64,000 bases of DNA from Chloroflexota bacterium. Its GTDB lineage: Bacteria > Chloroflexota > Dehalococcoidia > GIF9 > AB-539-J10. A program made the position numbers and the translations under genes. Below, in pieces: positions 9,277-58,532 of this stretch (within the stretch, counting starts at the first letter, position 1; each line of letters starts with the position of its first letter). A model generated the notes under the pieces. The model saw only the letters and a program-made list of their open reading frames with translations. It was not told the origin of the DNA and did no database searches. Location of the stretch: assembly GCA_013388845.1 (NCBI GenBank), contig JACAEN010000008.1, forward strand, positions 30,412 through 94,411. Direction: 5' to 3'.

Positions 9277-10218
9277 ATGATAGACGAATTAAAAGTCTTC
9301 AGCGGCACGGCTCACCCGGCCTTAGCCAGGGCTGTGTGTGATTATTTAGACATACCTCTGGGGGAGGCTGAGGTCTTTGAGTTTAGCAACGAAAACATTT
9401 TTGTACGCATCCTCGAGAATGTCCGGGAACGGGACGTTTTTATCGTCCAGCCCATTTGCTCCCCAGTTAACAGAAGTCTGGTCGAGCTACTTATCATGCT
9501 TGATGCCTTCAGACGAGCTTCAGCGGGGCGAATCACCGCCGTCGTTCCCTATTATGGCTATAGCCGCACCGACAAAAAAGACCAACCCCGGGTCCCCATC
9601 ACCGCTCGCTTGATTGCTGACCTGATTACCACCGCTGGAGCTAATAGGCTGCTCGCCGTGGATCTCCACGCTCCCCAAATTCAAGGATTCTTCACCATAC
9701 CTGTGGACGAACTCACCGCTCGCCCCATGTTGACCCGGTATTTCAAGGAAAAGGCTTTGAAGAATCTGGTGGTGGTGGCTACTGATATTGGTATCTCCAA
9801 GGTAGCTCGCGATATGGCTGCCAAACTCGCAGTTCCCTTGGCTATCATGGAAAAGAGGCGCTTGGGCAATGTCGATGCCACAGAAACCCTCAACGTCATT
9901 GGTGAGGTTGAGGGAATGCGCGCCCTGACCGTTGATGATGAGATTGATACCGCTGGTTCGCTGGTCGGGGTGGTGGACGCTCTTCTAAAGCGTGGCGTTA
10001 GGGAAGTTTATGCTTGCTGCACTCACCCCGTTTTCTCTGGTCCCGCTATCCAGAGGATAGCCGCCTGCCCGGTGAAAGAGGTAGTCGTTACCGATACTAT
10101 ACCTGTTAATGCCGATAAGAAACTGGACAAGATCACCGTTCTGTCCATAGCCTCTCTTCTTGGTGAAGCCATTCATCGCATTCACACCGGCTTATCAGTG
10201 GGCGCGATGTTTGAGTGA
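9277..10218 (+). CDS. prs: Ribose-phosphate pyrophosphokinase
   Basis: 'VQPICSPVNRSLVELLIMLDAFRRASAGRITAVVPYYGYSRTDKKDQPRVPITARL', 'TVDDEIDTAGS' PRPP loop. Confidence 0.97.
   Translation: MIDELKVFSGTAHPALARAVCDYLDIPLGEAEVFEFSNENIFVRILENVRERDVFIVQPICSPVNRSLVELLIMLDAFRRASAGRITAVVPYYGYSRTDKKDQPRVPITARLIADLITTAGANRLLAVDLHAPQIQGFFTIPVDELTARPMLTRYFKEKALKNLVVVATDIGISKVARDMAAKLAVPLAIMEKRRLGNVDATETLNVIGEVEGMRALTVDDEIDTAGSLVGVVDALLKRGVREVYACCTHPVFSGPAIQRIAACPVKEVVVTDTIPVNADKKLDKITVLSIASLLGEAIHRIHTGLSVGAMFE
10172..10218 (+). repeat. 47-bp direct repeat, copy 1 (prs 3' end)
   Basis: ttcatcgcattcacaccggcttatcagtgggcgcgatgtttgagtga, identical to 10729..10775. Confidence 0.97.
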
Positions 10219-10234
10219 TAAGGAGGATTGATTT

Positions 10235-10465
10235 ATGAAGAAAATCGTCCAAGTTAAGATTTACAAAGGGGAAAAGTACTATGTTGCTGAATGTGTTGAT
10301 TTACCCGTGGTTACCCAAGGTAGAACATTGGATGAGACAGTGCAGAATATAAGGGAAGCAATCGAGCTTCATCTCGAGGGAGAGAATCTTGATGAATGGG
10401 ATATTCTTCCTGATTTTTCTATCTTAGCTAATTTTGAACTTGAGCCAATCTATGTCAAAGCTTAA
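10235..10465 (+). CDS. hicB: HicB-family antitoxin (short form)
   Basis: 'YYVAECVDLPVVTQGRTLDETVQNIREAIELHLE' HicB-like fold; upstream of HicA. Confidence 0.85.
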   Translation: MKKIVQVKIYKGEKYYVAECVDLPVVTQGRTLDETVQNIREAIELHLEGENLDEWDILPDFSILANFELEPIYVKA

Positions 10466-10700
10466 AAGCCTCAGTGGAGAGGACGTTGTCAAGATTTTCT
10501 CCCAATTTGGTTTCGAAATTGCTTCTCAGAAAGGAAGCCACGTAAAGCTGAAAAGGGTTCTATCTAGGGGAGCGAAACAAACCCTGACTATCCCTTTACA
10601 TAAGGAATTGGATAAAGGCACTTTGAGAGCTATCTTCAGACAAGCCTCAAGATACATCCCTGAGGAAGAATTGAGGTCATGTTTTTACAGTAATCGCTAG
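10452..10700 (+). CDS. hicA: HicA-family mRNA interferase toxin
   Basis: 'KSLSGEDVVKIFSQFGFEIASQKGSHVKLKR...LTIPLHKELDKGTLRAIFRQA'; ORF 10434..10700, ATG at 10452 preferred. Confidence 0.9.
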   Translation: MSKLKSLSGEDVVKIFSQFGFEIASQKGSHVKLKRVLSRGAKQTLTIPLHKELDKGTLRAIFRQASRYIPEEELRSCFYSNR

Positions 10701-10728: not shown

Positions 10729-10775
10729 TTCATCGCATTCACACCGGCTTATCAGTGGGCGCGATGTTTGAGTGA
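10729..10775 (+). repeat. 47-bp direct repeat, copy 2 (orphan prs 3' end)
   Basis: Perfect duplicate of 10172..10218. Confidence 0.97.
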
Positions 10776-10804
10776 CAATTTGCCGAAGACAAAGAGGGGT
10801 TAGG

Positions 10805-10943: not shown

Positions 10944-13547
10944 ATGCTTAAGTGGCTTAGCAATCTGATTGATTCCAACGAGAAAGAATTGAGGCGCCTT
11001 CAGCCTTTGGTTGACCACATAAACTCGTTGGAGCCTGACTTTGAAAAGCTCACCGATGCTGAGCTGCGAGCCAAAACTGATGAATTTAAGGCTCGGCTAG
11101 CCGACGGCGAAAGCCTGGATGAGCTCCTGCCTGAGGCTTACGCCGCCGTCAGGGAAGCCGCCAGGCGAACCATAAAGCAGCGGCATTTTGATGTCCAGTT
11201 AATGGGCGGTATCGTCCTGCACCAGGGCAAGATAGCCGAGATGAAAACTGGTGAAGGAAAAACCCTGGTAGCTACCTTGCCTCTCTATCTCAATGCCCTG
11301 GCCGGACAAGGCTGCCACTTAGTCACCGTTAATGACTATCTCGCCAAGCGGGACTGCCACTGGATGGGTCCTATTTACCACGCCCTGGGGGTAAGCGTAG
11401 CCTGCATTAATGCCCAGCAGGCAAGTGACCAACCTGCACCCTCCTATATCTATGACCCCAGCTATGAGACGGCAGACCAGAAGTGGAATTTTCTCCGCCC
11501 AATCACCCGCCGCCAGGCTTATGAGGCAGACATAACTTATGGCACCAATAACGAGTTTGGCTTTGACTACCTCCGAGATAATATGGTCTGGGATTTGTCC
11601 CAATGTGTCCAGCGTTCCCTGAACTATGCCATCGTCGATGAGGTGGATAACATCCTTATTGATGAAGCCCGCACTCCGCTCATTATTAGCGGTGCCGCTG
11701 AGGAAGCAACCAAAAGGTATTACACCTTCGCTCAATTAGTCTCCCGCCTTAGCAAAGACACAGACTATACCATTGACGAGCGCACGCGTACCGTCAGCCT
11801 TACCGAGATGGGCATGACCAAGATGGAGAAGATGCTGAAGAGGGAAGGTTTGCTCAAAGCGCCTGACCTGTATGACCCCTCTAATTACCTGCTCACTCAG
11901 CATCTCGAGAGCGCCCTTAAGGCTCATGCCTTGTTCAAGAGGGACAAGGACTACGTGGTGAAGGATGGGCAGGTCATCATCGTGGACGAATTCACGGGCA
12001 GGTTGATGTTCGGCCGAAGATACTCTGAAGGATTGCATCAGGCTATCGAAGCCAAAGAGAGGGTAAAAATTCAGCGAGAATCGGTTACCTTAGCCACCAT
12101 CACCTTCCAGAACTATTTCCGTATGTATCAAAAACTGGCAGGCATGACTGGTACGGCAGTTACCGAAGCTGAGGAGTTCCATAAGATTTATAACCTGGAA
12201 GTCGTGGTTATCCCGACCAACAAGCCCTTGATTCGCACTGAATACCCTGACCAGATTTACAAGGACGAGAAGACCAAGTTTGCTGCCGTAGCCAGGGAAG
12301 TCAAGCAATTATATGAGCAAAAAAGGCCGGTCCTTATCGGCACAACCTCTATTGAGAAATCGGAGTATTTATCTGACCTTCTGAGGAGAAATGGCATACC
12401 TCATCAGGTATTGAATGCCAAGCATCATGAGAAAGAGGCAGCCATAATTGCTCAGGCCGGGCGACTGGGAGCGGTAACCGTCGCCACCAACATGGCTGGC
12501 CGTGGTGTAGACATTATTTTGGGTGGCAATCCCGAAGGGTGTAATGAAGCCGAATGGCAGGAAGAGCACAACAAGGTGGTGGAGCTGGGCGGGCTGCACA
12601 TCATCGGCACCGAGCACCACGAAGCTCGACGCATTGATAATCAGCTCCGGGGAAGGGCGGGAAGGCAAGGAGACCCGGGCAGCTCCCGTTTTTATGCCTC
12701 CCTGGAAGATGAGATTATTCGCCGCTTTGGCGGCGACCGTGTTAAGGGAATTCTGCAGTGGGCAGGCATGGATGAAAATACCCCCATTGAGCATCCCCTC
12801 GCCACCAAAGCTATCACCAATGCCCAGGTCCAGACCGAAGGTTATCACTTCAATATTCGTAAACATCTTGTGGAATACGACGATGTCATTAACAAACACC
12901 GTGAGGTCATTTACGCCGAGAGGAAGAAAGTCCTCACTGGCGCCGACCTCAAGGTCAACATACTATCTATGGTCAAGGATGAGATTGAAAGCCTTGTATC
13001 GAGGCATCTCACCAATGTCGGCTACGAGCAGGAAGAAGGGCAATCCGGGCTGTCTGGCTTACTCGAGGATGTATCCACCATCTTCCCTTTGCCTCCGCAG
13101 TTCCGAAGCAACGGGCTTTCCGAACTCAGCGCCCAGCAAATCACAGAAAAGCTGATTGATTATGCCATTGAGTTTTACAACCAACGAGAGCAGGAGCTAG
13201 GTCCTGACAACATGCGAATAGCCGAGAGGCTGGTGATGTTGCGAGTTATTGACCGGTTATGGATGGAGCATCTTACCGCCATGGAGCATCTAAGACAAGG
13301 GATAGGTCTGCGGGCTGTCGGTCAGGAACAGCCACTGGTAGTGTATAAAAGGGAAGGTCATGCCTTTTTTGAAGCCCTCTTAGCGGGCATTCAGCATGAT
13401 GTTGCCCATAGTATTTACCACGTTGGCATTGCCAAAGAGGCTCCGCAAAAAAAGAAGGAAGCAGTCCCGGTAGGCAAGAAAGTTGGTCGTAACGACCCCT
13501 GCCCATGCGGCTCGGGCAAGAAATACAAGCATTGCTGTGGAAAATAG
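10944..13547 (+). CDS. secA: Preprotein translocase ATPase SecA
   Basis: 867 aa; '[20 protein letters not shown]', '[16 protein letters not shown]', C-terminal SEC-C '[18 protein letters not shown]'. Confidence 0.98.
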
Positions 13548-13789: not shown

Positions 13790-14059
13790 ATGCCAATCTA
13801 TGAATATAAAGCTAAAAACGGTGCTCATTGCAAGCTCTGTAAAGGAAAGTTTGAGGTCAGGCAGGGCATAGATGACGCCCCCCTTACCAGATGCCCCCGA
13901 TGCGGCGCCGAAATAAGGAGGCTCTTTTCCCGTCCATTCCTGAGTCGAAAAGAATCCTTCAGCCATGAAGGCCCTCTGAATTATATGGAGGATATGGAGG
14001 ATGAGGGCGAAGAGTTAGGGCTTGAGGGAGACCTCGACGAAGACGAAGTCTGGGAGTGA
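13790..14059 (+). CDS. FmdB-family zinc-ribbon putative regulatory protein
   Basis: 'MPIYEYKAKNGAHCKLCKGKFEVRQGIDDAPLTRCPRCGAEIRRLFSRP'. Confidence 0.85.
   Translation: MPIYEYKAKNGAHCKLCKGKFEVRQGIDDAPLTRCPRCGAEIRRLFSRPFLSRKESFSHEGPLNYMEDMEDEGEELGLEGDLDEDEVWE
14038..14059 (+). repeat. 22-bp direct repeat, copy 1 (fmdB-like 3' end)
   Basis: cgaagacgaagtctgggagtga, identical to 14754..14775. Confidence 0.95.
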
Positions 14060-14123
14060 TGCTATTTCCCGTCAATTGTGATATACTATTCTGGGTAAAA
14101 ATGATATATAAAGGAGGTTCACA

Positions 14124-14327
14124 ATGAGGACGCTCATAGATATAGAAGGCGAATTAATGGAAGACTTACTGGAAGAAACTAAAGCCAAAACAAAGAAAGA
14201 AGCCATAGTAACGGCTATAAGAACTTATCTCAATTTGAAAAGAAGAGAGAAACTCGCCTCTCTTATCGGCAATTACGACTATGGGCACACTGTACAAGAG
14301 CTAGAAAGAATGAGGGCTGATGACTAG
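14124..14327 (+). CDS. vapB: VapB-type antitoxin
   Basis: 'MRTLIDIEGELMEDLLEETKAKTKKEAIVTAIRTYL' RHH; GGAGGT RBS; overlaps vapC. Confidence 0.85.
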   Translation: MRTLIDIEGELMEDLLEETKAKTKKEAIVTAIRTYLNLKRREKLASLIGNYDYGHTVQELERMRADD

Positions 14328-14718
14328 GGTAATAATTGATACCTCCGCCTGGATAGAATCTTTTCATCCCAAAGGAGATATTAAGCTAAAAGAAAGAGTT
14401 AAGCAGTTAATAACCGAAGGGAGTACACTTCTCCCCGGAATTATAAAAGCGGAGATATTAAGAGGAGCGAAATCGAAAAAAGAATACGAAAGTCTTGACG
14501 AATTATTGGATGGTTTAACTTACCTTCCGGTGGAAGAGAACTTCTGGGGTCGCTTAGCTAAGTTCTCCTTTGATTTGCTCAGGGAGGGGATTGTTGTCCC
14601 TCTGGTGGATGCTTACATCGCCCTTCTAGCTATAGAAAGCAACGCCTCACTCCTTCACCGTGACCAACATTTTGATTTAGTGGCTCGAAAAACTGGTTTG
14701 AACGTATTAAAGGTGTGA
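14320..14718 (+). CDS. vapC: VapC-type PIN-domain ribonuclease toxin
   Basis: 'VIIDTSAWIESF...E...PLVDAYIALLAIESNASLLHRDQHFDLVA' PIN acidic residues. Confidence 0.92.
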   Translation: MTRVIIDTSAWIESFHPKGDIKLKERVKQLITEGSTLLPGIIKAEILRGAKSKKEYESLDELLDGLTYLPVEENFWGRLAKFSFDLLREGIVVPLVDAYIALLAIESNASLLHRDQHFDLVARKTGLNVLKV

Positions 14719-14753
14719 TATCCATGCGCAATCATTCCTGCGGAAGGCCGCGC

Positions 14754-14775
14754 CGAAGACGAAGTCTGGGAGTGA
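14754..14775 (+). repeat. 22-bp direct repeat, copy 2 (orphan fmdB-like 3' end)
   Basis: Perfect duplicate of 14038..14059, downstream of vapC. Confidence 0.95.
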
Positions 14776-14782
14776 GGAAGAC

Positions 14783-14816
14783 CTCGCAAGAAACATGAAT
14801 ATTGCTGTGGGAGGTA
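14783..14816 (+). pseudogene. Remnant of a SEC-C motif C-terminus
   Basis: ctcgcaagaaacatgaatattgctgtgggaggtaa (..KKHEYCCGR*) resembles secA 3' end ctcgggcaagaaatacaagcattgctgtggaaaatag; 19/24 identical over the core. Confidence 0.5.
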
Positions 14817-14820
14817 AGAA

Positions 14821-15006
14821 ATGGAAATGATATTGGGTGTTACCACATGTGACAAATGCGGAGAGCCTATAAAAATAGGACAAAATATCGTTATTGTAAG
14901 CCTAAGCACTGTTGCCGGAGAGAATTGTGAGTTAGAGATTCCAGAGCCTGAGATAAGATATGCCTGTCACCTTGACTGCTGGGATGGTGTAGAGGTGGAC
15001 TATTAG
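14821..15006 (+). CDS. Small putative zinc-binding protein (61 aa)
   Basis: 'TTCDKCGEPIKIGQ...YACHLDCWDG' CxxC...CxxxC. Confidence 0.6.
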   Translation: MEMILGVTTCDKCGEPIKIGQNIVIVSLSTVAGENCELEIPEPEIRYACHLDCWDGVEVDY

Positions 15007-15104
15007 CATGGGAAGGGATAACCTTGCAAGGTTCTTGTGTGCAATATGTTTGACACTTTGACTGCTGGGATGTGATGGAAGAAAATGCAAGATAAGGAGT
15101 GACA

Positions 15105-51895: not shown

Positions 51896-51975
51896 TTTAC
51901 ACCTCCTGGTCTATAACCACGCTGTTTAATAATTTTGATTGCCCGTTCAACTGGCAATCAATATCTGGCGACACC

Positions 51976-53910
51976 TTACTTCTTCTTCACCTCTCCTTCT
52001 TTAAGCTCCTGATAGGCTTTGATTATTTCCTCCACGGAGCTTGCATCTTCCAGAGTCGTAAGGTCGCCTATACTGGTATTATTGGCTACGGCTTTCAAAA
52101 CCCGCCGCATGACCTTGCCACTCCTGGTCTTGGGTAGCTTCGTGACGAAATAAACTTCGTCAGGAACTGCTATAGGCCCTACCTCTTTTCGTATATGAGC
52201 AGCGAGGCCCTTTTTCAAGTCTGGAGAAGACTCAATTCCTTCTTTGAGCCGGGCAAAGACGACAATGCTCTCACCCTTCACCGGGTCAGCTTTGCCTACG
52301 ACTGCTGCTTCCACTATTTGGGGATGTGAAACGACAGCGTCCTCTAGTTCAGCAGTACCTATTCTATGCCCGGCTACTTTGAGCACTTCGTCAGCCCTCC
52401 CCAGGACCCAGAAGTATCCGTCTTTATCCTTCACAGCATAGTCACCGGCATAATAGACACCAGGAAAATGTGACCAATAGGTTTCCCTGTAACGTTCCGG
52501 GTCCCCATGTATGCCCAGGAGCATCCCCGGCCAGGGCCTCTTTATGACCAAAAAACCCCTCTGCTCCATCGGCGCGGGCTTACCATCCTCACCAACTACG
52601 TCAACCTCTACCCCGGGCAACGGCAGTGTTGCCGAGCCCCGCTTCAAAGGCAAACACTCTATGCCCGGGCAAGGCGAAATCATAATGCCACCAGTTTCAG
52701 TCTGCCACCATGTATCAACGATGGGACACCTCTCACCACCGACATTGCGGTAGAACCAGAGCCAGGCCTCAGGATTAATGGGCTCTCCTACACTCCCCAA
52801 TAACTCCAGACTGCTGAGGTCATGCTTTTTCACCATTTCCTCCCCATATCCCATAAACATCCTGATGGCTGTGGGCGAGGTATAGAACACGGTGACCCCA
52901 TATTTCTCGATAATATCCCACCATCTCTCAATCGTAGGATAATCAGGAGCCCCTTCGTAAATGACTGTAGCCGCCCCATGCGCCAGCGGGGCATACACTA
53001 TCTGGCTGTGTCCGGTAACCCACCCAATATCAGCAGTACACCAGTAGATCGATTCCTCTCGAAGATTGAAGACCCACTTATAAGCAGAACAATTGTGCAC
53101 CAGATAGCCACCTGTACTGTGCACGATTCCTTTGGGCTTCCCTGTGGTCCCCGAGGTGTATAGTATATAAAGGGGGTGATTTGACTCTACTAGCTCCGGT
53201 TCTACAAACAGAGCAGCATCTTTTAGCAAGTCATCAAGCCACGATTCCTTTGGTGTCTTTACGGTGACCGGAGAGTTAGTTCTCTTAACCACGATAACCT
53301 TCTCCACTGAGGGGCATTTTGTTACAGCCTCGTCGGCTATGTTCTTCAACGGGACCACCTTCCCCCGGCGAAATCCTCCATCAGCAGTTATTAGCAGCTT
53401 AGCTTGTATATCATTGACCCTATCAGCCAATGCCTGAGCACTGAAACCAGAGAAAATCACTGTGTGAATGGCTCCAATTCGGGCACAGGCCAGCATGAAA
53501 ATAAGCAGCTCCGGTATCATCGGCAGATATAGGGCAACTTTGTCTCCATCCCCTACACCGCAGTTCCTTAAAACTGAAGCATATCTGTTGACTTCCCGAT
53601 ATAACGTGGAATAGCTTAAGGCCCTGCTATCTCCCGACTCGCCCTCCCAGTATATGGCCACCTTGCTTCTACGCCACGTCTTAACATGGCGGTCCACACA
53701 TATATGCGATGCATTCAGTCTCCCCCCTAGAAACCATCTGGCAAAAGGCGGCTTCCACTCCAGCACTTTGTCCCAGGTCCTGAACCAATCCAGCTTACGC
53801 GCCTCCTCCGCCCAGAACTCCTCTGGCTCCTCCAGGGACTTCTGGTACATATCGAGGAATTTCTTCACAGGCAAGTATCTGAACTTAAATGGTAAAGATA
53901 ATTCAGTCAT
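51976..53910 (-). CDS. Acetyl-CoA synthetase family, paralogue 1 (Trp pocket)
   Basis: 'YTSGTTGKPKGIVHSTGGYLVH', 'DTWWQTETGG', 'PKTRSGKVMRR'. Confidence 0.95.
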   Translation of the reverse strand: MTELSLPFKFRYLPVKKFLDMYQKSLEEPEEFWAEEARKLDWFRTWDKVLEWKPPFARWFLGGRLNASHICVDRHVKTWRRSKVAIYWEGESGDSRALSYSTLYREVNRYASVLRNCGVGDGDKVALYLPMIPELLIFMLACARIGAIHTVIFSGFSAQALADRVNDIQAKLLITADGGFRRGKVVPLKNIADEAVTKCPSVEKVIVVKRTNSPVTVKTPKESWLDDLLKDAALFVEPELVESNHPLYILYTSGTTGKPKGIVHSTGGYLVHNCSAYKWVFNLREESIYWCTADIGWVTGHSQIVYAPLAHGAATVIYEGAPDYPTIERWWDIIEKYGVTVFYTSPTAIRMFMGYGEEMVKKHDLSSLELLGSVGEPINPEAWLWFYRNVGGERCPIVDTWWQTETGGIMISPCPGIECLPLKRGSATLPLPGVEVDVVGEDGKPAPMEQRGFLVIKRPWPGMLLGIHGDPERYRETYWSHFPGVYYAGDYAVKDKDGYFWVLGRADEVLKVAGHRIGTAELEDAVVSHPQIVEAAVVGKADPVKGESIVVFARLKEGIESSPDLKKGLAAHIRKEVGPIAVPDEVYFVTKLPKTRSGKVMRRVLKAVANNTSIGDLTTLEDASSVEEIIKAYQELKEGEVKKK

Positions 53911-54110
53911 AGCTTAAATCCTTCCCATGATTCATTTTGTAGCTGCCTGATTTATCAAGCACCACTTTTGTCATTGCCAGTGAAGAGTGGCAACCCCATA
54001 CCCTTCCACGAGATTGCTTCGTCCCGATAAATCGAGACTCGCAATGACAAACAGTCTGCACCCCTTGCGCTGCTTCACCACCAACCATGAAATCAATATC
54101 TGGCGGCACC

Positions 54111-56045
54111 CTACTTCTTCTTCACCTCCCCTTCTTTAAGCTCCTGATAGGCTTTGATTATTTCCTCCACGGAGCTTGCGTCTTCCAGAGTTGTGAGATC
54201 TCCTATGCTGGTATTATTAGCTACGGCCTTCAAAACCCGCCGCATGACCTTGCCACTCCTGGTCTTGGGTAGCTTCGTGACAAAATAAACTTCGTCAGGA
54301 ACTGCTATAGGCCCTACCTCTTTTCTTACATGACCAGCAAGTTCTTTTTTCAGGTCCGGAGAAGGCTCCGCACCTTCTTTGAGCCGGGCAAAGATGACGA
54401 TGCTCTCACCTTTCACCGGGTCAGCTTTGCCCACGACTGCTGCTTCCGCTATTTGAGGATGTGAAACGACAGCATCCTCTAATTCAGCAGTGCCTATTCT
54501 ATGCCCGGCTACTTTAAGCACCTCGTCAGCTCTCCCCAGGACCCAGAAGTATCCGTCTTTATCCTTTACGGCATAGTCACCAGTATAGTAAACACCGGGG
54601 AACCGCGACCAGTAAGTTTCCTTATAACGTTCTGGGTCTCCATGTATGCCCAGGAGCATCCCCGGCCAGGGCTTCTTTATGACCAAGAAACCCCTCTGCC
54701 CCATCGGCACTGGCTTACCATCCTCATCGAATATATCAACCTCTATCCCTGGCATCGGCAGTGTTACCGAGCCGGGCTTCAAAGGCACACACTCTATGCC
54801 CGGGCAAGGCGAGATCATATTGCCACCGGTTTCAGTCTGCCCCCAGGTATCAACAATGGGACACCTTTCACCACCGACATAGTGATAAAACCAGAGCCAG
54901 GCCTCAGGATTAATGGGCTCTCCCACACTCCCTAATAACTCCAGACTGCTGAGGTCGTACTTTTTCAGCATCTCCTCCCCATATCCCATAAACATCCTGA
55001 TGGCTGTCGGTGAGGTGTAAAATACGGTGACCCCATATTTCTCGATAATATCCCACCACCTTTCGATCGTGGGATAATCGGGAGCTCCTTCGTAAATGAC
55101 TGTGGCCGCCCCGTGTGCCAGCGGGGCATACACTATCTGGCTGTGCCCGGTAAGCCAGCCAATATCAGCAGTGCACCAGTACACTGATTCCTCTCGAAGA
55201 TTGAACACCCACTTATAAGCAGAACAATTGTGCACCAGATAACCACCTGTGCTGTGGACAATTCCTTTAGGCTTTCCTGTGGTCCCCGAGGTGTATAGTA
55301 TATAGAGGGGGTGATTTGACTCTACCGGCTCCGGTTCCACAAAGAGTGCTGCCTGTTCAAGCAGGTCGTCCAGCCATGATTCCTTGGGCGCCTTTACAGT
55401 GATTGGAGAGTTAGTCCTTTTAACCACAATAACCTTCTCCACCGAGGGGCATTTTGTTAAAGCTTCATCAACTATACTATTCAGCGGGACCACCTTCCCC
55501 CTCCGAAATCCTCCATCGGCAGTCACCAGCAGTTTGGCTTGTATATCGTTGACTCTATCAGCCACTGCTTGAGCACTGAAACCAGAGAAAATCACTGTGT
55601 GAATGGCTCCAATTCGGGCACAGGCCAGCATGAAAATAAGCAGCTCCGGTATCATCGGTAAATATAAGACAACATTGTCCCCTTTGCCTATACCACAATT
55701 CTTCAGGACGGAGGCAAACCTGTTAACTTCACGATATAACGTGGAATAGCTTAGGGCCCTGCTATCCCCTGGCTCGCCTTCCCAGTATATAGCCACCTTG
55801 CTTCTGCGCCACGTCTTGACATGGCGGTCCACACATATGTACGAAGCATTCAGCATCCCCCCGACAAACCATCTGGCAAAAGGCGGCTTCCATTCCAGCA
55901 CCTTGTCCCACGTCTTGAACCAATATAGCTTACGTGCCTCTGCCGCCCAGAACCCCTCAGGATCTTCCAGAGACTTCTGGTACACATCGAGGAATTTCTT
56001 AATAGGAAAGTATCTGGACTTAAATGGTAAGGATAATTCAGCCAT
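54111..56045 (-). CDS. Acetyl/acyl-CoA synthetase family, paralogue 2 (Gly pocket)
   Basis: Same architecture; 'DTWGQTETGG', 'PKTRSGKVMRR'. Confidence 0.95.
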   Translation of the reverse strand: MAELSLPFKSRYFPIKKFLDVYQKSLEDPEGFWAAEARKLYWFKTWDKVLEWKPPFARWFVGGMLNASYICVDRHVKTWRRSKVAIYWEGEPGDSRALSYSTLYREVNRFASVLKNCGIGKGDNVVLYLPMIPELLIFMLACARIGAIHTVIFSGFSAQAVADRVNDIQAKLLVTADGGFRRGKVVPLNSIVDEALTKCPSVEKVIVVKRTNSPITVKAPKESWLDDLLEQAALFVEPEPVESNHPLYILYTSGTTGKPKGIVHSTGGYLVHNCSAYKWVFNLREESVYWCTADIGWLTGHSQIVYAPLAHGAATVIYEGAPDYPTIERWWDIIEKYGVTVFYTSPTAIRMFMGYGEEMLKKYDLSSLELLGSVGEPINPEAWLWFYHYVGGERCPIVDTWGQTETGGNMISPCPGIECVPLKPGSVTLPMPGIEVDIFDEDGKPVPMGQRGFLVIKKPWPGMLLGIHGDPERYKETYWSRFPGVYYTGDYAVKDKDGYFWVLGRADEVLKVAGHRIGTAELEDAVVSHPQIAEAAVVGKADPVKGESIVIFARLKEGAEPSPDLKKELAGHVRKEVGPIAVPDEVYFVTKLPKTRSGKVMRRVLKAVANNTSIGDLTTLEDASSVEEIIKAYQELKEGEVKKK

Positions 56046-56208
56046 AGCTTAACCTTTCCGATTACGATTCTTCACATTTATGAGTCGCCTGATTTGTCAG
56101 GCATCTCTTTCATCATTGTCAGCAAAGCGCAGCATTCCCATGCCCATCCACAAGATTGCTTCGTCCCGATAGATCGGGACTCGCAATGACAGATAGTGTG
56201 GCGACGTC

Positions 56209-58155
56209 TTACTTCTTGTTTCCCTTCTTCTTTACCTTCCCTTCTTTGAGCTCCTGATAAGCCTTGATTACCTCTTCTACGGAGCTTTCATCTTCCAGAG
56301 CTGTGAGGTCTCCTATGCTGGTACCATTAGCCACGGCTTTCAAAACTCGCCGCATAATTGTGCCACTCCTCGTCTTGGGTAGCTTGGCCACAAAATAAAC
56401 CTCATCAGGTACTGCCACGGGACCTAGCGCCCTCCGTATATGATCAGCCAAGTCCTTTTTCAAGTCCGGGGAAGGCTCAACGCCTTCTTCAAGCCGGGCA
56501 AACATGACGATGCTTTCACCTTTCACCGGATGAAGTTTACCTATAACTGCTGCTTCAGCTATTTTGGGATTTGATATAGCAGCATCCTCTAGTTCAGCAG
56601 TGCCTATTCTATGGCCGGCCACTTTAAGCACTTCATCAGCCCTCCCCAGAATCCAGAAGTATCCATCTTCGTCCCTTACAGCATAGTCACCAGTATAGTA
56701 AACGCCAGGAAACCGTGACCAATATTCTTTCTTGTAACGTTCCGGCCCTCCGTATATGCCCAGGAGCATCCCCGGCCAGGGCCTCTTTATGACCAGAAAA
56801 CCTCTGTGCTCCAGCGGCACCGGTTTGCCATCCTCATCTACTACCTCAGCCTCTACTCCAGGCAGCGGTAGCGTTACTGAGCCAGGTTTCAATGGTATGC
56901 ACTCTATGCCCGGGCAAGGTGAAATCAGGGCACTACCAGTTTCAGTTTGTCCCCAGGTATCAGCAATGGGACACCTTTCACCACCGACATTACGGTAAAA
57001 CCAGAGCCAGGCTTCAGGATTAATAGGCTCTCCCACGCTCCCTAATAACTCCAGAGTGCTGAGGTCATGCTTTTTCACCATTTCTTCCCTATACCCCATG
57101 AACCTCCTGATAGCTGTGGGCGAGGTGTAAAATATGGTGACTCCATATTTCTCGATAATATCCCACCATCTTTCAATTGTAGGATAGTCAGGAGCACCCT
57201 CGTAAATGACTGTGGCCGCCCCATGTGCTAATGGGGCATATACTATCTGGCTGTGCCCGGTAACCCACCCAATATCAGCAGTGCACCAGTAGACTGATTC
57301 TTCCCGAAGACCGAAAACCCACTTATAAGCAGAGCAATTGTGCACCAGATAGCCACCCGTACTGTGGATAACTCCTTTAGGCTTTCCTGTAGTCCCCGAG
57401 GTATACAGCACATAAAGGGGATGATTTGATTCTATCGACTCCGGTTCCACGAAGAGTCCTGCCTTATCCAGCAGGTCATCCAGCCATGATTCCTTTGGCG
57501 TCTTCAAAGTGACCGAAACACCAGCCCTCTTAACCAGAATAACCTTCTCCACCGAGGGACATTTTGTTAAGGCTTCATCAACTATACTCTTTAGCGGGAT
57601 CACCTTCCCCCTCCGAAATCCTCCATCAGCAGTTACTAGCAGCTTGGCTTGTATATCATTGACCCTATCAGCCAATGCCTGAGCACCAAAGCCGGAAAAA
57701 ATCACTGTATGAATAGCCCCGATCCTGGCACAGGCCAGCATGAAAATAGGTAGCTCCGGTATCATGGGCAGATATAGGGCAACTTTGTCCCCATCCCCTA
57801 CACCACAGTCCCTTAAAACTGAAGCATATCTGTTGACTTCACGATACAACGTGGAATAGCTTAAGACCCTGCTATCTCCCGGCTCGCCTTCCCAGTATAT
57901 AGCCACCTTGCTCCTCCGCCAGGATTTAGCATGACGGTCCACACATATATACGAAGCATTCAGCATCCCCCCGACAAACCATCTGGCAAAAGGCGGCTTC
58001 CATTCCAGTACCTTGTCCCACGTTCTAAACCAATCTAGCTGACGTGCCTGTTCCGCCCAGAACTCCTCCGGCTCCTCCAGAGACCTCTGGTACATATTGA
58101 GAAATTTCTTCATAGGGATATAACTTGATTCAAATGGTAAAGATAATTCAGCCAT
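56209..58155 (-). CDS. Acetyl/acyl-CoA synthetase family, paralogue 3 (Gly pocket, catalytic-Lys position Thr)
   Basis: 'DTWGQTETGSALI', 'PKTRSGTIMRR'. Confidence 0.93.
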   Translation of the reverse strand: MAELSLPFESSYIPMKKFLNMYQRSLEEPEEFWAEQARQLDWFRTWDKVLEWKPPFARWFVGGMLNASYICVDRHAKSWRRSKVAIYWEGEPGDSRVLSYSTLYREVNRYASVLRDCGVGDGDKVALYLPMIPELPIFMLACARIGAIHTVIFSGFGAQALADRVNDIQAKLLVTADGGFRRGKVIPLKSIVDEALTKCPSVEKVILVKRAGVSVTLKTPKESWLDDLLDKAGLFVEPESIESNHPLYVLYTSGTTGKPKGVIHSTGGYLVHNCSAYKWVFGLREESVYWCTADIGWVTGHSQIVYAPLAHGAATVIYEGAPDYPTIERWWDIIEKYGVTIFYTSPTAIRRFMGYREEMVKKHDLSTLELLGSVGEPINPEAWLWFYRNVGGERCPIADTWGQTETGSALISPCPGIECIPLKPGSVTLPLPGVEAEVVDEDGKPVPLEHRGFLVIKRPWPGMLLGIYGGPERYKKEYWSRFPGVYYTGDYAVRDEDGYFWILGRADEVLKVAGHRIGTAELEDAAISNPKIAEAAVIGKLHPVKGESIVMFARLEEGVEPSPDLKKDLADHIRRALGPVAVPDEVYFVAKLPKTRSGTIMRRVLKAVANGTSIGDLTALEDESSVEEVIKAYQELKEGKVKKKGNKK

Positions 58156-58184
58156 AGCTTAACCTCCTGCAATTATTACAAGGG

Positions 58185-58532
58185 TTAGACCTCTACCAGG
58201 ACTTCGCCATCTTGAAGCCCTACATTATACACCATAAGGCTCTTGGACATCTTAAGGGCTTTACCTACCTTCGACATCAGCCCTCCTTTTAACCAACGGA
58301 CTACCCGACCATTACTAATATCAAATTGAGAGCCATGCCGGGGACAAGTGACCACTGTGCCTTCCAATCTACCCTGTGATAGATCGCCCTTCATATGAGG
58401 GCAGCGATTATCAGTGGCATAGTACTTATCTCCGACTCTGGCCAGAAGGATTTCACGCCCTGCTATCCTTACCATTTTCATTGTTCCGTCTTTCAGTTCG
58501 TCTATTTTAGATACCTCTATGAACTGACCCAT
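58185..58532 (-). CDS. Rieske [2Fe-2S] domain protein
   Basis: 'CPHMKGDLSQGRLEGTVVTCPRHGSQFDI' CxH...CxxH. Confidence 0.95.
   Translation of the reverse strand: MGQFIEVSKIDELKDGTMKMVRIAGREILLARVGDKYYATDNRCPHMKGDLSQGRLEGTVVTCPRHGSQFDISNGRVVRWLKGGLMSKVGKALKMSKSLMVYNVGLQDGEVLVEV

Follow-up and report, generated by a model that had tools for sequence, protein, structure and literature searches.

Toxin–antitoxin pairs between copies of their neighbour's gene end: probable small cassettes inserted at the 3′ ends of housekeeping genes in Dehalococcoidia

The vapBC pair lying directly behind an fmdB-like gene in a Chloroflexota genome is probably a small addiction cassette whose insertion behind this gene duplicated the gene's 3′ end, and the same would apply to a hicBA pair behind prs and, in an earlier event, to fmdB behind secA. 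Read from sequence, the comparison of related genomes shows insertion, the downstream copy as the old gene end, recurrence with unrelated cargo and arrays at secA; the reaction that joined the DNA we infer, under either of the two leading models weighed below. The window, by which we mean the whole analysed stretch of 64,000 nucleotides (contig JACAEN010000008.1, positions 30,412 to 94,411), carries the genes and gene ends of the prs, secA and fmdB loci described below on its forward strand.

The target of the vapBC insertion is a zinc-ribbon gene at 13790–14059 (PF09723 Zn_ribbon_8, 46.8 bits), which follows secA (10944–13547), an upstream housekeeping gene recognised as an open reading frame with a SEC-C motif at its end and preceding fmdB in relatives as well. 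The last 22 nucleotides of fmdB form the exact repeat CGAAGACGAAGTCTGGGAGTGA at 14038–14059, which ends precisely with the TGA stop codon (14057–14059) and reappears behind vapC at 14754–14775, so that both genes of the pair stand between the two copies. A sequence-only reading had claimed both this perfect 22-bp direct repeat and its identity with the 3′ end of the fmdB-like gene, and each proved exact. When weaker upstream similarity is included, the repeat covers about 37 nt at 86% (14023–14059 and 14739–14775). Even with up to 3 mismatches allowed, the 22-mer occurs at only these two places in the 1.38-Mb assembly, and none of 100 shuffles gave a match at 3 mismatches. With two copies only, a dispersed repeat is ruled out here; this explanation was retained for several of the hicA loci treated below. 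Exact repeats of at least 18 nt at a spacing of 200–2000 nt were limited in the window to the fmdB and prs pairs, a tandem triplication at 51–59 kb aside. In the latter (51956–58200), one gene is found in three tandem copies that are roughly 80–90% alike over aligned segments. No RNA element was found at the repeat, the Rfam matches in the window being rRNA and tRNA only.

The insert, about 0.68 kb at 14060–14738, holds vapBC only. Its first gene, vapB (14124–14327), matches PF09957 (VapB_antitoxin) barely at the curated cut-off and is 79% identical to its homologue in genome G063. The second, vapC (14320–14718), encodes a PIN-domain toxin (PF01850, 47.5 bits; the sole PIN match in the assembly) whose best solved relative is VapC11 (6a7v, E 3.9e-14) and whose identity to the G063 homologue reaches 83%. 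The PIN toxin gene overlaps the upstream antitoxin gene by 8 nt, the layout of VapBC type II systems, and we infer the toxin–antitoxin (TA) function of this and the other pairs from their family alone.

A second, unrelated TA family with the same architecture had also been noted in the window, and it is indeed present. The hicBA pair (10235–10700) stands between two copies of the prs end (10172–10221 and 10729–10778) that are identical at 49 of 50 positions; the best-preserved stretch counts as a 47/47 match to the host gene. The toxin gene hicA (10452–10700) matches PF07927 with 64.8 bits, and the adjoining hicB (10235–10465) gave a HicB_lk_antitox match with an E value of 8e-4, under the curated cut-off. 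Between the prs stop codon and hicB there is a ribosome-binding site alone. The earlier remark that both repeats terminate at the stop codon in a shared GAGTGA is correct as an observation; as a common target motif GAGTGA was ruled out, since other sites end in GAGTAG, AGATAAA or CTGATATAA, and the coincidence arises because the fmdB and prs proteins each end in Glu-stop. In genome G014, from a second species, the same prs end is followed by another cassette, composed of a DUF4258-like gene and a DUF2283 gene, within a perfect 43/43 repeat that ends at the stop codon; DUF2283 was confirmed by Pfam, whereas DUF4258 was assigned by eye with no Pfam match. This cassette is an insertion independent of hicBA.

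Empty sites, which the sequence-only reading had proposed to look for at the fmdB locus, were found there in relatives and at prs as well. In relatives of the same genus (loci L005/L033, L016 and others), the fmdB end directly joins the sequence that succeeds copy 2 in the window; in genome G019, whose locus L005 is the same sequence as the public record L033, GGGAGAACCAGCAAGAAATATGAATATTGCTGCGGGAGGTAAGAGATGG comes immediately after the fmdB TGA. Similarly, the prs end of L054 and L058 runs into CTTGCCGAA..., corresponding to the window flank after copy 2 of that repeat. Because the empty-site fmdB ends continue from copy 2, vapBC is taken as the insert and copy 2 as the old fmdB end, and because the prs ends of L054 and L058 continue likewise, hicBA is taken as the insert and its copy 2 as the old prs end. 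Moreover, copy 2 behind vapC has a GCC codon as in most relatives, where the present fmdB has GAC. On this comparison, the copies behind vapC and hicA are displaced old gene ends and the TA pairs are inserts. The bracketing of vapBC by the fmdB end is thereby upheld with a correction: the copy behind vapC is the displaced original, and copy 1 belongs to the present gene. An empty site in a relative and a direct repeat of the target flanking the insert, which together characterise an insertion with long target duplication, were both observed. The other 19 genomes searched from the same genus yielded no close VapC, the best reaching 37% identity. The region downstream of fmdB in L008, L011, L005 and L006 is a hotspot of gene content, with a DNA methyltransferase with HTH, an EVE-domain gene or an HNH gene according to species.

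The closest homologues of the window's vapBC (VapC 83 to 55% identity) lie mostly at secA, and behind the gene wherever the contig shows secA; the pair of genome G075 stands away from secA, between two copies of the secA end. A perfect 58/58 repeat of the secA end surrounds vapBC in G081, and diverged ones do so in G064 and G063 (about 50 nt) and in G075 (about 46 nt). The window cassette thus bears the fmdB end and its relatives the secA end, from which it follows that the repeat derives from the target gene. Horizontal movement of vapBC is indicated by the VapC proteins of G075 and G081, which are 86% identical, whereas the SecA ends of the two genomes are 59% identical. In addition, the G075 tails are closer to the secA ends of G056 and G081 than to the secA end of G075 itself, as if the tail travelled with the cassette, a comparison to be read with the possibility that the G075 contig is a binning error. 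In G063, two different secA copies were seen on contigs C101 and C40 of one assembly, where contamination or gene transfer is possible.

Displaced secA ends were detected at 10 of the 31 secA loci read downstream (among the ten, the G043 match is weak and possibly due to chance), compared with 0.01 per locus in shuffled sequence. Some of these loci form arrays in which successive modules are separated by gene-end tails. In G056 the order is secA, an HTH and PIN pair, a tail, hicBA, a tail, a ParE-type pair and a tail, and in G037 it is secA, a gene of 153 aa, a tail, vapBC, a short tail, a ParE-type pair and a tail. A further array, in G017, combines hicBA with DUF433-DUF5615, separated by end copies of a gene other than secA.

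Behind fmdB, the sequence agrees with the secA end at 20 of 25 positions in the window (14786–14817) and at up to 31 of 36 in relatives, the null maximum score being 13, and fmdB is for this reason placed between secA and the displaced end of secA, left by an older fmdB insertion. On sequence evidence, the insertions in the window lie nested one within another, secA-[fmdB-[vapBC]-fmdB end]-secA end. An in-frame SEC-C-like stretch is retained past the fmdB TGA in the window (14776–14817) and in L005, L014, L016 and L017, for example GRTSKKYEYCCGR. It is best read as a displaced secA end that has persisted across an order; a recoded fmdB stop codon was also considered and set aside, as the stretch matches the displaced secA end and is missing in several relatives. 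Further downstream, in the stretch 14821–15099, a small gene (14821–15006) is followed by about 80 nt left from the 3′ part of another allele of it, one like those in G063 and G017 (L399, L010), and this remnant may be the scar of a further insertion or replacement.

Beyond the window, TA modules flanked by gene-end repeats, for which a genome-wide scan had been suggested, do recur with the same layout, in unrelated TA families and at many gene ends. In a bracket test, 27 of 83 hicA loci had a repeat score of at least 20, compared with 7 of 600 random positions drawn from 1.26 Mb of the same Dehalococcoidia order (p 8e-21), part of the hicA count coming from dispersed repeats and a few loci having been entered twice (L115/L225, L129/L241). 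A conservative count of clear 3′-end duplications only, leaving out hicA loci with TGTCATTGCGAG-type or similar dispersed repeats, still gave 12 of 80 hicA sites against 4 of 600 (p 4e-9). The high-scoring control positions were mostly tandem protein repeats, plus one genuine case, at mfd, of inserted cargo of another kind. A family-independent repeat scan covered 1.26 Mb from three genomes, some stretches having been picked around known TA or GIY-YIG genes.

The hicBA pairs were located at tRNA-Met (G023, G064), at tRNA-Thr (G037), at a miaB-like gene (G025), where copy 2 includes the start of the next gene, at comM (G037) with a 77-nt repeat, at serA (G017, G013) with a repeat of at least 200 nt, and, in three genomes, behind a gene with the end CNCVW; miaB, comM and serA were named from protein ends. 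The repeat ends 0–3 nt from the stop codon at the prs, fmdB, comM, serA, miaB-like and secA targets, and its length differs across sites, between 22 and at least 200 nt, also among closely related cassettes. Elsewhere in the phylum, a small sample yielded 4 of 26 hicA sites with a score of at least 15, the clearest being a tRNA-Ala with a 75-nt repeat. Judged from these genomes, nearly all of them metagenome assemblies, the pattern holds generally across this Dehalococcoidia order.

It is worth adding that the layout is shared by cargo of other kinds. The genome to which the window belongs has GIY-YIG genes behind tRNA-Ala (two in tandem) and tRNA-Asn, accompanied by copies of the 3′ part of the tRNA, and they are found likewise at the tRNA-Ala genes of G005 and G009. 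Those at tRNA-Ala (L093:17635-18350, L168, L170) have the right end AGAGCGTCCCGATTGCATCGGG in common, after which comes the 3′ part of the local tRNA, and the unit resembles a homing-type element with specificity for tRNA-Ala. The same layout was seen for a 327-aa gene at an apparent mfd end with a 110-nt repeat (L222:14413-15812) and for a 183-aa gene at tRNA-Asn (L235, reverse strand 1944–2595). With such cargo at mfd and tRNA-Asn, the process extends beyond TA pairs.

How could such cassettes move? In the explanation that we prefer, the moving unit would be the cassette together with a copy of the end of its target gene, and homologous recombination by the host, using the short end in common, would place the unit behind the same gene in another cell. 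The target gene keeps an intact 3′ end (copy 1) with the cassette directly behind its stop codon, and the old gene end (copy 2) stays downstream as a non-coding tail before the ancestral flank; each leftover tail may serve the next round of insertion. The TA pair would in this way probably gain the transcription of a housekeeping gene without damaging that gene. Such a unit explains the exact junctions, the loyalty of cassette families to their target and the arrays. Counting against an imported tail, the best repeats fit the host gene perfectly (43/43 in G014, 58/58 in G081, 47/47 at prs). This is what would be expected if break or fork repair copied in a foreign fragment at the gene end, with synthesis restarting 20–200 nt upstream and no travelling address, since a local duplication makes young repeats out of the host's own gene; variable repeat lengths, varied cargo and the published parallel in restriction-modification systems speak for it too. 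Yet it leaves unexplained why the left junction lies 0–3 nt from the stop codon at many targets, and it does not account for the return of one vapBC family to secA across three families of the order. By itself this course is a clear possibility at rather less than an even chance, and we hold the homology-carried unit and the local long target duplication to be about equally likely.

Site-specific insertion by an integrase acting in trans, or an origin of the TA pairs as remnants of larger integrative elements with att sites at gene 3′ ends, is less likely than either of these. Classic att sites are the 3′ ends of genes and tRNA genes, where the gene end is restored, and both this likeness and the repeated use of the same targets would favour such an origin. 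Nevertheless, the cassettes of about 0.5–0.7 kb hold a TA pair alone, the two in the window have no space for an integrase and no recombinase or transposase was found in their listed open reading frames; the wide variation in repeat length and the many unrelated targets also argue against an integrase, which we therefore consider unlikely. Homing-type spread, in which repair after endonuclease cleavage of the gene end copies in the cassette, would have the TA pairs share the route of the GIY-YIG genes, and finds its best arguments in the same layout behind tRNA-Ala and tRNA-Asn of the same genome and in the fungal mitochondrial mobile ORFs that duplicate gene ends likewise. Against it, the TA cassettes encode no DNA endonuclease, and fmdB and prs likewise showed none, and it too falls behind the homology-carried unit and local duplication, being doubtful even by the measure of an integrase. 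An assembly artefact, chance or a dispersed repeat is highly improbable: even though the genomes are metagenome assemblies, the 22-mer has two copies only, and the layout occurs in many separate assemblies with some of the copies diverged. 

More broadly, it could be that TA modules from a wide range of unrelated families spread without a recombinase, as cassettes that attach at the 3′ end of a housekeeping or tRNA gene, repeated insertion beside the gene building integron-like TA arrays with gene-end copies between the modules, a generalisation to which we assign a little short of an even chance.

The mobility of TA systems is often attributed to known mobile elements, according to a review (PMC3874152). 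The layout described here addresses the open question of how solitary chromosomal TA modules move, and suggests a simple way for TA pairs to settle without known mobile-element machinery. Its signature, which works with at least five TA families, orients single insertions, reveals their target and lends itself to scans of any genome. With it, this route of TA spread becomes directly testable and young insertions become simple to recognise. A literature search that had most subscription papers outside it brought up no account of TA modules in this layout or in such arrays, and for TA modules the repeats ending at the stop codon and the serial arrays look new.

Several known systems resemble parts of this picture, the nearest precedents found being the first two below. 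Insertion of restriction-modification systems with target duplications that are long and variable, around the 100-bp scale, has been described (Nobusato et al. 2000; Furuta et al. 2010, via PMC3874152, PMC3031569, PMC1643837). As far as those accounts are accessible, they share with the present cases small addiction modules, no known mobile element, long variable target repeats and comparison with empty sites; on the same limited view they differ in that the cargo here consists of several TA families, GIY-YIG genes and a few others, and in that the repeats here end at the stop codon of the upstream gene or at the tRNA end and the insertions stack in arrays. In fungal mitochondria (Allomyces, Glomus), mobile endonuclease ORFs duplicate gene C-termini and leave the displaced native C-terminus downstream, the inserted ends being 64–81% identical to a relative and the native ends 91–98% (PMC3630166). 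The order of a gene with a replaced end, a mobile ORF and a displaced native end is the same; however, those ORFs carry an endonuclease and a foreign end, whereas the TA cassettes lack an endonuclease and their young repeats equal the host gene. Neither vapBC nor hicBA comes with an endonuclease in its cassette; the tRNA cases do have a GIY-YIG gene. Integrative elements at tRNA and gene 3′ ends likewise restore the gene end and leave a displaced copy on the far side, but the inserts here measure 0.5–0.7 kb and have no integrase. Finally, like integron gene cassettes, TA cassettes among them, the modules at secA are single-module units in repeat-separated arrays, and a reading of the open reading frames listed within a few kb of these arrays recognised no IntI tyrosine recombinase; the separators here are secA-end copies, derived from the 3′ end of a housekeeping gene, and apparently not attC sites.
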